From the IMG/VR virus record IMGVR_UViG_3300005582_000071, positions 1 to 29,242 of that record: 29,242 nt of DNA. One strand, written 5' to 3'. Source of the stretch: a virus. Positions within the stretch are counted from its first letter, which is position 1, and every line of letters starts with the position of its first letter. Made by a program: the position numbers and the translations under genes. The notes under the pieces are model-generated. The model was not told the DNA's origin, ran no database searches, and worked only from the letters and a program-made list of their open reading frames with translations. Positions 20,850 to 29,242 of the stretch are shown here, piece after piece.

Positions 20850-21263
20850 CTACTTGCTCAATCCTAGCAACTCTGTGATGTCTTTTCCCAAAGAAATATT
20901 GTAGTAACCCACCATCTTGACAATCATATTGTTATTGGTAAAGTGTGTAGTCTTTGGCATCCTTCGCTCCTCCCACTCAGGCTCTGGGAGTTCGCTTAAG
21001 CGGAACGACCAGACCCCAATAGGGGTTGAGTTGATGTAAACTGGGATAGTACCAAACATTGCCGCCCTTTCGATAAGGGCGTCATACTTCGACTTCTCAA
21101 TGACTAGGTTATCGTAGTGAATGTTGCGGCACTTAAGTTCTATGTCCGAGTTATGGACAAGGGAGTAGCAATCGTACTTAGACATCTTATGCTCGCTGAC
21201 CTGAAGGTCATCGGCAATTCTCTCCTTAATGAGGTTGAAGAGCTCCCTCTCGTACTTGATCAT
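20850..21263 (-). CDS. Putative PD-(D/E)XK-type nuclease, 137 aa
   Basis: The N-terminal helix (residues 1-25) is followed by a compact core: KYDCYSL (Asp31), then SDIELKCR with Glu42-x-Lys44, then a helix with IEKSKYDALIERA and the strands GTIPVYI and GVWSFRL. An Asp about ten residues before an ExK on the next strand, then a conserved Lys-containing helix, is the core layout of PD-(D/E)XK nucleases and VSR/resolvase-like enzymes. This is a motif-level guess. It overlaps the glycosyltransferase gene before it by 4 bases (ATGA) and is the last gene before the terminator at 20801-20827. Confidence 0.48.
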   Translation of the reverse strand: MIKYERELFNLIKERIADDLQVSEHKMSKYDCYSLVHNSDIELKCRNIHYDNLVIEKSKYDALIERAAMFGTIPVYINSTPIGVWSFRLSELPEPEWEERRMPKTTHFTNNNMIVKMVGYYNISLGKDITELLGLSK

Positions 21264-21793
21264 ATGTAGTTATAGTAGCTCACATAGCTGTTTAGGGCTA
21301 ACACTCTTCCTCTTGTCGAGCACTCTTCAGCATATTCGCCATCGTGGACGTAGCCGTCGTTACACCTAATGTCCTTAACATACTTCCATTTGACCATAAA
21401 AGAGGCAGAGTCGATTTCTCCAACATTTGGAATATCTACAGGGATAAGTCTAACACTTCCATCCTTTGATAATTGTCCCCAGGTTAGCATTGCTAAGTCC
21501 TTATTTAGGTGAGGCTTTACCGTCTTATACCAATCTGGGTGGATAATGTTGTCACTGTCTAGCCATAAAATCCAGTCGTTGTCTTCAAACGGGAAATTGT
21601 CAAACGCATAGTTTCTGTTGTGTGATCCAAATCCTCCAGTCATATTTGAATTCATACATACAGCACCATCAACAATAGGAGGATTCTCAACCAAGGAATC
21701 AAACACTATAATCCAATTACAATCTGTTGGTATAGACTTCTTTATTGTCTCAAGATTTTCCGGCCTATGGCAAGGTGTTATAATGTAAATCAT
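21260..21793 (-). CDS. GT-A type glycosyltransferase-like protein, 177 aa
   Basis: The N-terminus IYIITPCHRPENLETIKKSIP is the opening strand and helix of GT-A glycosyltransferases (GT2/GT43-like). GSHNRNYAFD near residue 60 and the metal-binding DxD in ILWLDSDNIIHPDW (Asp79-x-Asp81) follow. The C-terminal third has Cys residues and HDGEYAEEC, a candidate acceptor or base region. At 177 aa it is close to a minimal catalytic domain. It overlaps both neighbours by ATGA, so it is made together with the GT-B enzyme and the 137-aa protein. Targets could be modified phage DNA, virion proteins or host surface glycans; the sequence does not decide. Confidence 0.75.
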   Translation of the reverse strand: MIYIITPCHRPENLETIKKSIPTDCNWIIVFDSLVENPPIVDGAVCMNSNMTGGFGSHNRNYAFDNFPFEDNDWILWLDSDNIIHPDWYKTVKPHLNKDLAMLTWGQLSKDGSVRLIPVDIPNVGEIDSASFMVKWKYVKDIRCNDGYVHDGEYAEECSTRGRVLALNSYVSYYNYI

Positions 21794-22752
21794 AGCAAGT
21801 GCTTTAATCTTTTTTCGTTAATCAAATCAAGGTTATGATTAGGACAATCCTTCAGCATATCGTGCAGATTGTCTCCGAGCATTTTAGCCTTTTTTTTCGT
21901 CATAGACTCAATTGCTTCAGCCCAATCTTCCTTGGTTCTGACCAGCAAACCGGTCTCGTTGTGGATAATGCTTTTGCTGTAGGGCATTGTATTGGAAGCA
22001 ATGACTGCTGTTCTTGTATGTGCCGCCTCGGTTATCTTTAAATCGCTTTTACTCCAATTGAATTTATTGCCAACCAATGGCACAAGGCTTACATCAAAGT
22101 TTCTATACATACTTGCATAACTGTATATAGTCCTTGGCGACATAACATACTTTGCCCCAAGCTTTTCTGGGTAGTCTGATACCTGTACGCAATACAATTC
22201 TTTTTTTGAAAAATCATACCCAATACTTTGTACATCGTGGTCGTGACCTAGTGCACCAACATACCCGAAGGAAACAGTCTTGCTTTTGTACTTTTCTTGA
22301 TCAATCCATTGACTATCTCGATCATCAACAGCATTGTTTATAATCTCAACTATTGCCCTTGGGTTTACGTCAAGCATAAGTTTAGCTAAGTAGTGGGACG
22401 GCGTCCAGATGACGTCGGCGATACGTATGGTCTTCTTGATGTCTGGGCCGTAGTACACCTCGTAAAGACCCTTGGCAGGATTTCCGTTGTTGAGGTCCCA
22501 GTAGTCATCGTTGTCAAGTATCAACTTAACTCCGCGACTCTTAAGCATTTGACTGAACTTCTTATGGTTATTAACCGATAACTTGCGTGATACAATTAAG
22601 CTTGTTACAACATCTAAATTAATATCCTTTAGTTCGTTCAGTGATTGTATCCAGTGTATATTGACGCCTTGATTAGCAAGGCGTCTCAATGGGACGATCA
22701 GCCTATGGTAGTTTATACCACTAAGCCCATCGATATGCACCAAGGTTATCAT
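21790..22752 (-). CDS. GT-B (GT4-like) glycosyltransferase, 320 aa
   Basis: The N-terminal half opens with a Rossmann strand (MITLVHIDGLSGINYHRL) and contains LILDNDDYWD near 77-86. The C-terminal half has the typical FGYVGALGHDHD at 162-173 and the nucleotide-sugar site FNWSKSDLKITEAAHTRTAVIAS (231-253), followed by IIHNETGLLV and a DWAEAI helix. This is the two-domain GT-B arrangement at normal length. It is intracellular, with no signal peptide. The stop overlaps the ATG of the GT-A gene, and its own ATG overlaps the stop of the 72-aa gene (both ATGA), making a coupled cassette. Confidence 0.85.
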   Translation of the reverse strand: MITLVHIDGLSGINYHRLIVPLRRLANQGVNIHWIQSLNELKDINLDVVTSLIVSRKLSVNNHKKFSQMLKSRGVKLILDNDDYWDLNNGNPAKGLYEVYYGPDIKKTIRIADVIWTPSHYLAKLMLDVNPRAIVEIINNAVDDRDSQWIDQEKYKSKTVSFGYVGALGHDHDVQSIGYDFSKKELYCVQVSDYPEKLGAKYVMSPRTIYSYASMYRNFDVSLVPLVGNKFNWSKSDLKITEAAHTRTAVIASNTMPYSKSIIHNETGLLVRTKEDWAEAIESMTKKKAKMLGDNLHDMLKDCPNHNLDLINEKRLKHLL

Positions 22753-26037: not shown

Positions 26038-26343
26038 TTAATGCACGATAAAGGGTTCATTCCAATCACTATACTTAAGCCCCCACTGTATGTTCATCCA
26101 CCGCATTTCTTTCTCGGCTAAGGTTTTGTTTAGCTTTAGATTCTTACGCAGATAGTCTACGCCCCAGGCCATCCACTGGTCGGACTGAGCCATAGTCATA
26201 GTCCACTCAGCCCACCAGTTGTCAGTCCTACCCTTGATGTCTTCGTAGGTAACGCTATGACCAGCAATCACAAACATCTGATTGAGTATATCAATCACTG
26301 CCTGCTCTCGCTTTTGTTGCTTGGTTAGTCGTTTTGCTTTCAT
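26038..26343 (-). CDS. Conserved Bacteroidetes-phage protein, 101 aa, function unknown
   Basis: A basic N-terminus (KAKRLTKQQKREQ) leads into a helical, Trp-rich body: VIDILNQMFVIAGHSVTYEDIKGRTDNWWAEWTM, then WGVDYLRKNLKLNKTLAEKEMRWMNIQWGLKYSDW. I recall similar Trp-rich 100-aa proteins near replication genes in other Bacteroidetes phages, without known function. It is the last gene before the intergenic region, and its stop TGA/TAA area borders the repeats. The first 53 bases overlap the 59-aa gene in another frame. Confidence 0.78.
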   Translation of the reverse strand: MKAKRLTKQQKREQAVIDILNQMFVIAGHSVTYEDIKGRTDNWWAEWTMTMAQSDQWMAWGVDYLRKNLKLNKTLAEKEMRWMNIQWGLKYSDWNEPFIVH

Positions 26344-26470
26344 AGTTCCTTATTACTTCTTGTTCTATTAGTTCCAACATATAGTCAAAGCTGATGCCTT
26401 CGTCTTCGCCTCCGAAGCGTTGACGATTCACTACGTCCCTAAAGAATGCTGCGCTGATGTATTTGCTCAT
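26291..26470 (-). CDS. Small protein, 59 aa, unknown
   Basis: ATG 26470 overlaps the stop of the 84-aa gene (ATGA) and the frame ends at TGA 26291. It fills the only gap between the 84-aa and 101-aa genes. Residues 1-42 read like a folded or helical protein (SKYISAAFFRDVVNRQRFGG, then ISFDYMLELIEQEVI). The last 16 residues are polar and lie inside the 101-aa gene in another frame, as in other genes of this block. The ATG lies within a 26-bp repeat also found at 26755-26780. Confidence 0.58.
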   Translation of the reverse strand: MSKYISAAFFRDVVNRQRFGGEDEGISFDYMLELIEQEVIRNYESKTTNQATKARAGSD

Positions 26471-26491
26471 TTCTCTTTGGTGCTAAAGGTT
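26466..26491. repeat. 26-bp direct repeat, copy 1
   Basis: This segment equals 26755-26780 at 25 of 26 positions (C at 26483 versus T at 26772). On the - strand it covers the last seven codons of the 84-aa gene (TFSTKEK), its stop, and the ATG of the 59-aa gene. Confidence 0.85.
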
Positions 26492-26721
26492 TTTTCGTAG
26501 TAAAGTTCTGCTTGGTCAGTAGTCCACTGGGTGTGAGGGTAGTCGTCAAATACTCGCTGACCCTCAATGTGGGCATCTATAATTACATTTTTCTCTTTCT
26601 CAATATAGTTCTGTTCAATGATGCATATAACAAAATGTAAAGAATCTCTAAATATTACATCATTTGATTTATAATAAGTATTGTTCAACCCATCTAATAA
26701 TTCCTGCATCGGCGTTTTCAT
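26467..26721 (-). CDS. Small acidic phage protein, 84 aa, unknown
   Basis: The product starts MKTPMQELLDGLNNTYYK and ends DQAELYYEKTFSTKEK, with a central amphipathic stretch HFVICIIEQNYIEKEKNVIIDAHIEGQ. I recall proteins of this length and start, with an 'AxxYYxxT' end, as frequent accessory genes of Bacteroidetes phages; no function is known to me. It overlaps the next gene by ATGA. It lies exactly between the two copies of a 26-bp repeat, which suggests that it entered or was duplicated as a module. Confidence 0.75.
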   Translation of the reverse strand: MKTPMQELLDGLNNTYYKSNDVIFRDSLHFVICIIEQNYIEKEKNVIIDAHIEGQRVFDDYPHTQWTTDQAELYYEKTFSTKEK

Positions 26722-26754
26722 AAGTAAATTTATTTACGGTGAGGAGCCTTGCGA

Positions 26755-26780
26755 CTCATTTCTCTTTGGTGTTAAAGGTT
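26755..26780. repeat. 26-bp direct repeat, copy 2
   Basis: It matches 26466-26491 with one mismatch, 289 bp away. On the - strand it covers the stop of the 92-aa gene and an ATG that opens a 9-codon frame (26730-26759). The same codons that encode TFSTKEK in copy 1 are present here but out of any gene, so copy 2 looks like a remnant of a lost or moved gene end. Confidence 0.85.
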
Positions 26781-27050
26781 AATATCCCAATAGTATTCGC
26801 ACTTGCCGTTCTTGATAGGTGGGTTCATAAAGTAGGATTGATACATCCCCTCAGGGGCGGTGAAGCGGTAGCAAGATTCCTTGAGAGCGCATCCGTGTCC
26901 CCAGCATTTAGTGATGTCGGTCATTGTTTTTCTGTTATTAAGTTCATCTTCAGTGTAGAAGTCCGTGCCTTCGTTGTCTTCTGGCTCGATGCCGTTCTTA
27001 ATCATATCAATGATTAGTAACAACTCGGTCATTGTTAAGTCTATTTTCAT
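26772..27050 (-). CDS. Small Cys-containing phage protein, 92 aa
   Basis: The N-terminus is helical (MKIDLTMTELLLIIDMIKNGIEPED). The C-terminal half has a four-cysteine pattern, KCWGHGCALKESCYRF and NGKCEYYWD (C-x4-C-x5-C-x25-C), which could hold zinc or an iron-sulfur cluster. Aromatic residues cluster around it (MYQSYFMNPP). I recall similar CWGxGCxLKxxCYR proteins in Bacteroidetes phages, uncharacterised. The ATG at 27050 lies next to a divergent + strand lipoprotein gene at 27087, so the two may share a regulatory region. Confidence 0.75.
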   Translation of the reverse strand: MKIDLTMTELLLIIDMIKNGIEPEDNEGTDFYTEDELNNRKTMTDITKCWGHGCALKESCYRFTAPEGMYQSYFMNPPIKNGKCEYYWDINL

Positions 27051-28573: not shown

Positions 28574-29242
28574 TTAAAGTTCTCCTGTTATTATATAATT
28601 ATCGAGGTCTTCGCCGTTGATAAAGTATTCCGTGTAAACACGGACAGCTTTATCGACTAAACGCTTACCCTCAAGGTAGAAGGACTCAGAGACGGAGAAA
28701 ACCCCGATATCCTTACTTCCCTTATCGACCACAATGAACTGAAAGTTCTTGTAGTCAATTCCAAACAGCGTAGAGTAGATGTATACCTGTGCTGGATATC
28801 CATACCGTTTTGCGCTGTGGCTAAATGAGCCAATGTCTGATGTTGTCTTAAGATCGTAAACGGCAACACCTCTGTGGAGGATGTCCGCCTTCGCCCGGTG
28901 GGGCAGTCCAGATACGTCACCAATGGCTGGCATCTCGAACTCCCCACCCTTTAGCATATCCTTAACTAACTCGTTGCGAAGCAGAACTTCCACAACAGCC
29001 ATACTAAGGTCGTACTCGCTAGTGGTAAGGATCGTCTGACCCTTCAACAGCTGTTCTTTTGCATCCTTGTATATCTTCGATGCCTTGGAGGCCACGTCTA
29101 CCTTCACAAACAGAGCCTCTACCTTCTCAGGCTCAAGGACCGCAGTGTGGATAAGCTTTCCGATGGCAAGGGCTGGTGTATCCAGCCTTGCCCCCTCTAG
29201 CATATTTTTATACTCCTTCGGGCTTTCGTTTAAAAGCTTGTC
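28574..29242 (-). CDS. RecB/Cas4-like PD-(D/E)XK exonuclease (DUF3799-type), N-terminus outside window
   Basis: The frame is open to the right edge, where codons for DKLLNESPKEYKNMLEG precede the first visible ATG, so the true start lies beyond the window. All RecB-family motifs are visible in order: G-x3-H in IGKLIHTAVLEPE, Asp in HRAKADIL, D-x-K in VYDLKTTSD, and Q-x3-Y in PAQVYIYST. The 'SPxxYKxMLEG' opening fits the YqaJ/RecE-like DUF3799 group found beside phage annealing proteins. It should resect DNA ends to make single strands for recombination. A recT/bet-type annealing gene would be expected nearby but is not in the window. Confidence 0.82.
   Translation of the reverse strand, partial: DKLLNESPKEYKNMLEGARLDTPALAIGKLIHTAVLEPEKVEALFVKVDVASKASKIYKDAKEQLLKGQTILTTSEYDLSMAVVEVLLRNELVKDMLKGGEFEMPAIGDVSGLPHRAKADILHRGVAVYDLKTTSDIGSFSHSAKRYGYPAQVYIYSTLFGIDYKNFQFIVVDKGSKDIGVFSVSESFYLEGKRLVDKAVRVYTEYFINGEDLDNYIITGEL

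Follow-up and report, generated by a model that had tools for sequence, protein, structure and literature searches.

The minus strand of the window, which comprises all 29,242 bases of an IMG/VR virus record, carries the same short sequence at two gene junctions within a run of small genes, and this raises the question of what such a repeat does and how it came to lie there. Phage genomes are mosaics with joints at gene boundaries, and it is a long-standing question whether these joints reflect random joining followed by selection or the use of dedicated linker sequences. The 26-bp direct repeat reported in a preliminary description is real. Positions 26466-26491 and 26755-26780 are identical at 25 of 26 positions (read on the minus strand, AACCTTTAGCACCAAAGAGAAATGAG and AACCTTTAACACCAAAGAGAAATGAG) and have the shared form AACCTTTA[AG]CACCAAAGAGAAATGAG. 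In copy 1, which has a 25-nt core at 26467-26491 with one mismatch to the consensus, the repeat joins the end of an 84-aa gene (26467-26721, minus strand) to the start of the next gene, as was first proposed: it holds the final codons ACC TTT AGC ACC AAA GAG AAA TGA, and the TGA overlaps the ATG of a 59-aa gene (26291-26470, minus strand). Copy 2 (core 26756-26780, an exact consensus) had been taken for a coding end stranded after the stop of a 92-aa gene (26772-27050, minus strand; phrog_20586, unknown function). Instead, the TAA of the 92-aa gene lies inside the repeat, and the ATG of the repeat opens a 9-codon ORF, MSRKAPHRK* (26730-26759, minus strand). There is no third copy in the window, where the next best site has 7 mismatches in 25 positions.

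The two repeats are copies of a dispersed 25-nt element, AACCTTTAACACCAAAGAGAAATGA, the last four bases of which contain the start codon of the next gene. Further copies had been suggested as a test of recombination, and hundreds are present. An exact 26-mer scan of IMG/VR gave 61 stretches, and a scan of viral contigs with a 19-base core gave at least 119. Together with relatives of the 84-aa protein, these scans yielded 239 loci on 221 contigs, which hold 441 distinct copies at six or fewer mismatches (153 of them exact), with an ATG in register at positions 22-24 in 414. At least one site with an ATG at five or fewer mismatches occurs in 203 contigs, and the maximum counted per contig is 11. 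In a first-order Markov control of 0.93 Mb, no site matched at six or fewer mismatches, whereas the real loci compared with it gave 257 distinct sites; this result and the 61 exact stretches rule out chance or simple duplication as the origin of the repeat. Motif-bearing contigs span 4 to 297 kb. Among 40 long records, picked by us mostly by length, 36 match at three or fewer mismatches, against one match in the backwards control. Where a record has at least three copies, they lie on one strand within about 2.5 kb, the exceptions being isolated 3-mismatch hits and four records in which the cluster straddles the contig ends.

The motif is carried by uncultured Bacteroidota phages, the nearest isolates of which infect Flavobacteriia. 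The minus-strand replication genes of the window include a BT4734/DnaB-type primase-helicase and ribonucleotide reductase, and the nearest annotated relatives of the primase-helicase and of a structural protein are mostly found in Flavobacterium, Cellulophaga, Maribacter and Nonlabens phages. Two glycosyltransferase-like genes (21260-22752, minus strand) adjoin the ribonucleotide reductase genes. The motif is not confined to close kin of the window, because the 482-aa structural-region protein of the window is absent from the other records searched (35 of the 41 numbered records). No known isolate phage was found to carry the motif; in four Bacteroidota phages, three of them covered over their first 50 kb, no copy is closer than 7 mismatches, and tblastn found no relatives of the 84-aa protein among known isolates. 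In genome collections, a 21-base core of the motif occurs in just two stretches, each from a MAG of another phylum (L136 in a Pseudomonadales MAG and L137 in a Rickettsiaceae MAG), which are probably virus contigs wrongly binned. A search of six sources against Rfam gave one tRNA and nothing else. The repeat is, with fair probability, a start-associated sequence whose copies also serve as homology for the shuffling of small accessory genes, and the evidence for the shuffling is taken first.

Homology between contigs ends at the motif more often than at its surroundings. For the homology-break, insertion, anchoring, motif-variant and frame comparisons, 40 of the 239 loci were dropped as near-identical; three same-contig locus pairs stayed in the filtered set and were handled solely in the flank-sharing count. 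Counted per aligned kb, homology stops 30.0 times in the motif, 18.2 times at the remaining gene starts up to 2 kb away and 3.4 times elsewhere in the neighbourhood, and the distinct end positions per kb of sequence number 44.7, 15.8 and 5.2, respectively. Relative to ordinary mosaicism at gene junctions, the motif shows a 1.7-fold excess per aligned kb and a 2.8-fold excess in distinct break positions per kb. Stretches of homology that run on into the downstream gene stop at the 5' edge of the motif, and those that run on upstream stop at its 3' edge. Flank sharing between contigs, counted over 436 sites, is upstream only in 330 pairs, downstream only in 343 and on both sides in 71. Two motif copies flank 11 of the 57 clean insertions in the size range 90-2500 bp, with a joint overlap of 15-33 bp, and these motif-bounded insertions carry one gene or a few. 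Clean insertions near motifs number 46, and by the test applied 35 of them are not bounded in this way. No clean insertion had both forms present in two contigs each. Recombination between gene ends as a way to load or lose cassettes, as first proposed, is in part supported by the homology breaks and the 11 clean insertions, with the mosaic structure itself as the ground for naming recombination as the cause.

The variants of the motif add some detail. Within a locus their mean distance is 1.60, against 1.77 when permuted (14 of 2000 permutations were as low), so that genome-wide homogenisation of the variants is weak. A motif variant follows the same downstream gene in another contig in 181 of 296 pairs and its own contig in 93 of 296. 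A cross-over within the motif predicts that its 3' half should follow the downstream gene, and no such effect was seen (difference -0.002, 95% interval -0.038 to 0.032). The 5' half, in turn, tracks the upstream gene, an effect for which coding constraint could account.

Relatives of the window vary at the site itself, and do so exactly at the repeat. L002, in which the 84-aa protein is 96% identical, retains the 92-aa gene, the tiny ORF and the 84-aa gene but has an unrelated gene in place of the 59-aa gene. Between the 84-aa and 59-aa genes, L003 has an inserted additional gene accompanied by a motif copy of its own; the comparison of L003 with the window was scored as not motif-bounded since the left copy in L003 has a 3-base insertion. 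In L122, a different gene lies across the motif from the end of the 92-aa gene. The variation expected in relatives is therefore found in the neighbours of the 84-aa gene, one replaced and one added, while the 84-aa gene itself, which had been expected to come and go, stays in both L002 and L003. It is unlikely, though assembly chimaeras are to be kept in mind as a caveat, that the motif is a start-associated sequence only and that the breaks arise from short-read assemblers joining strains at a shared 25-mer, added to ordinary gene-boundary mosaicism. Every sequence here is a metagenomic assembly with no isolate to set beside it, many contigs have a motif close to one of their ends, and motif-free gene starts break too. 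However, 40 junction types occur in at least two contigs, 10 pairs of these have just one side in common, and the site differs among the window, L002 and L003 although the collinear stretches around it are 80-95% identical.

The other part of the favoured reading is that the motif is a start-associated sequence, and a role in translation start is suggested by its position, its built-in stops and its low structure. The motif spans -21 to +4 of the start codon. Per-site information is 0.8-2.2 bits at positions 1-25 and mostly below 0.2 outside, with 0.2-0.5 bits at the few bases beside each edge. The sites were selected by the motif, and hence an anchoring test used only the initial 9, the final 9 or the central 8 bases; anchoring on any one part recovers the remainder, with flanks near zero. 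An ORF of at least 30 aa lies behind 345 of 401 motif ATGs, compared with 44% of 4059 control ATGs. The motif holds stops in two of the three frames, TAA at 7-9 and TGA at 23-25. Upstream of the other genes of at least 120 aa in these contigs (n=1396) the sequence is merely A-rich, and the motif differs from this ordinary start region. RNA at motif starts is less structured (unpaired fraction 0.65, against 0.55 at other starts; 390 each), in part because these starts are poorer in G+C. Bacteroidota rarely use Shine-Dalgarno pairing, in which a purine core AGGAGG stands some 5-9 nt from the start, and no such core was found in the motif, where the sequence reads CACCAAAGAGAA-ATG. The motif might also be a promoter or operator rather than a translation element, for example one read by a phage-specific RNA polymerase that gives leaderless mRNA. 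Single-subunit polymerase promoters look like contiguous blocks of about 25 nt, which the motif, at its fixed position, resembles. This too we consider unlikely, as 228 of the 352 copies with upstream room end an open gene of at least 40 codons in same-strand arrays and the register to the ATG is fixed; no RNA_pol family match was obtained in 30 records, and the control genomes gave no match either.

Recombination genes were sought by family searches in 30 of the 41 numbered records. Of these 30 motif-bearing records, 19 have exonuclease VIII matches, among them the window, where an Exonuclease VIII-like gene (phrog_412; 28574-29203, minus strand) lies about 1.8 kb upstream of the repeats and is a candidate for the recombination function; exonuclease VIII as the partner of the motif is only suggestive. 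YqaJ recombinase, present in 1 of the 30 records, was set aside as a partner. Maribacter phage Panino and Flavobacterium phage elemoD, annotated isolates with related replication or structural genes, encode an exonuclease and an Erf-like annealing protein in the vicinity of small genes. One-gene cassettes in one orientation, a single array per genome and precise joints would also suit a dedicated site-specific recombination site, with integron-like cassettes moved by an unknown recombinase. We regard this as improbable. Tyrosine integrase PF00589 was matched in 0 of the 30 records (possibly fragments) and in 14 of 14 control genomes; the motif lacks palindromic symmetry, with a folding energy of only -0.5 kcal/mol and a best self-complement of 10 matches; and its copies vary and carry a start codon.

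The sequence is conserved as nucleotides, whatever the upstream reading frame. Frames were called for 396 sites in the 199 filtered loci with an upstream ORF threshold of 40 codons. The upstream ORF is in frame 1, with TGA overlapping the ATG, at 182 sites (mean mismatches 1.59), in frame 0, with TAA inside the motif, at 43 (1.98), and in the open frame at 3 (0); at 124 sites there is no upstream ORF of 40 codons (1.40), and 44 sites are too close to an edge for a frame call (1.55). Once the motif-coded tail is left out, the upstream proteins of the 182 frame-1 sites form 51 unrelated families, and these proteins end alike in (T)FNTKEK because the tail is encoded by the DNA element. That the repeat is a duplicated remnant of the coding end of the 84-aa gene, as the preliminary description held, is hardly credible even though frame 1 of the motif encodes the C-terminus of that family, TFNTKEK, since conservation is equal or nearly equal at the 124 sites without an upstream ORF and the 43 in the other frame, the tail is common to 51 unrelated families and the motif is fixed on the downstream start codon. 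A coding-only origin, as the common C-terminus of one protein family, is ruled out by the same conservation behind non-coding sequence and the same 51 families.

Genes behind the motif are small and diverse. The 339 complete downstream ORFs have a median of 68 aa and form 121 families, 74 of them singletons, and the largest family, with 105 members, is that of the 84-aa gene (MKTPMQEL...YYNETFNTKEK). Representatives of at least 35 aa, cut at 110, were annotated with Pfam and PHROGs, covering 110 of the 121 families. Pfam gave 13 families, each in one member of the 110; PHROGs gave 55 families, and each of the 25 among the matches listed was found in one member. The matches are scattered over nucleases, MazG, methyltransferase and DNA binding. 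Three helices are predicted for the 84-aa protein, with low confidence in its motif-coded tail, and the predicted fold has no PDB match at E<=0.001.

Several other features were seen around the motif copies. The 84-aa family is itself mosaic: 42 pairs have a common N-half (at least 85% identity) and a differing C-half, as in L058:368-583, L073:3001-3216, L083:3591-3815 and L095:601-855. The switch lies near a conserved LEKEKE, present in 52 of the 105 members, the DNA of which contains AAAGAGAAA, a 9-mer also found in the motif. A composite element stands behind some motif copies and consists of a tiny ORF (MSRKAPHRK or MSRCTPHR...), possibly a leader peptide, and a short inverted repeat before the next ATG. 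It was found at window positions 26724-26759 (minus strand) and in L003, L029, L077, L112, L119, L188 (twice) and L224. In the window, the inverted repeat GTAAATAAATTTAC (26724-26737, minus strand) lies between the 9-codon ORF and the start of the 84-aa gene, and in other phages its two arms vary together, with paired changes in 9 distinct instances (GTAAAT..ATTTAC, GCAAAT..ATTTGC, GATAAAT..ATTTATC). A unit of 70-80 nt (MRTPPAYGALGFSKRQATALINGVFF) with a terminator-like end of CGGAGT and a T-run also recurs downstream of the motif (for example in L075, L085, L134 and L184), at 7 sites with 7 different upstream contexts.

The nearest known system is that of the Start-Associated Sequences (SAS/ESAS) of Cluster K mycobacteriophages. 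These are described as short asymmetric repeats that lie on the start codon or within a few bases of it, in one orientation in the non-structural region, and that precede genes of different families and are absent from most other phages (PMC3203893; PMC12699233). Their role in translation is proposed but unproven, and their consensus is the 13-bp GGGATAGGAGCCC with an AGGAG core (PMC3203893). The present motif likewise stands at start codons in one orientation, before 121 downstream families, and in the 40-record scan it keeps to one strand per record apart from an isolated weak hit. Unlike SAS, it lacks the GGGATAGGAGCCC consensus and the AGGAG core, is 25 nt long and includes the ATG; its copies also crowd into a single array, occur in many contigs and mark mosaic joints. 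The PeSL mobile regulatory cassettes of T4-type phages (described by Arbiol in 2010 and Comeau in 2014) reportedly consist of an early promoter and a terminator stem-loop between genes, and this repeated intergenic regulatory element is said to provide homology for modular shuffling. Mosaic joints fall at the present motif in a similar way; however, the motif has no stem-loop and overlaps coding ends and a start codon. Integron gene cassettes and attC sites have been reported in phages as well (PMC9892861). The motif arrays resemble these in having single-gene cassettes of one orientation separated by a repeated site, and differ in that no integrase (30 records) and no attC-like hairpin or palindrome was found, and in that the motif carries stop and start codons. 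Translation initiation in Flavobacterium johnsoniae is described as A-rich or Kozak-like, without Shine-Dalgarno, and as favouring A at -3, -6, -12 and -13 (PMC6847099). The motif agrees with such starts in lacking a Shine-Dalgarno and in having A at -6 and -13, whereas it has G at -3 and C at -12 and is a fixed 25-nt sequence at a subset of genes. No paper turned up when the text of the literature was searched for a 15-base core of the motif, and no description of it was found in the available text of the literature on start-associated sequences, Bacteroidetes start motifs, and cassette or gene-boundary repeats. The motif is a new SAS-like element that probably also acts as a recombination seam.

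On the favoured reading of a start-associated sequence that doubles as homology for gene shuffling, the motif would promote translation initiation, probably as re-initiation after the upstream stop, because it has stops in two of three frames and ends on an ATG. Homologous or single-strand-annealing recombination between copies would add, delete or exchange one gene at a time, probably carried out by a phage exonuclease and an annealing protein; this is suggested by the recurrence of one 25-nt sequence at gene junctions, where unrelated genes can adjoin it at each side with frames unbroken. The 84-aa gene would be one such cassette family. A stronger version can be held only tentatively, namely a cassette system independent of any dedicated recombinase, in which a universal 25-nt stop-start adapter stands at each junction and annealing by phage recombination proteins swaps single genes. 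If this is true, every neighbour would stay correctly terminated and translated after the insertion, deletion or exchange of a single gene, and different Bacteroidota phages would have in common an integron-like array without integrase or attC for reloading their accessory genes. One sequence marks hundreds of joints, and the mechanism is directly testable with two copies and one gene going cleanly in and out. The motif is also a candidate start signal for Bacteroidota, and the content between two copies offers a way to search for small accessory genes, possibly with anti-defence roles.
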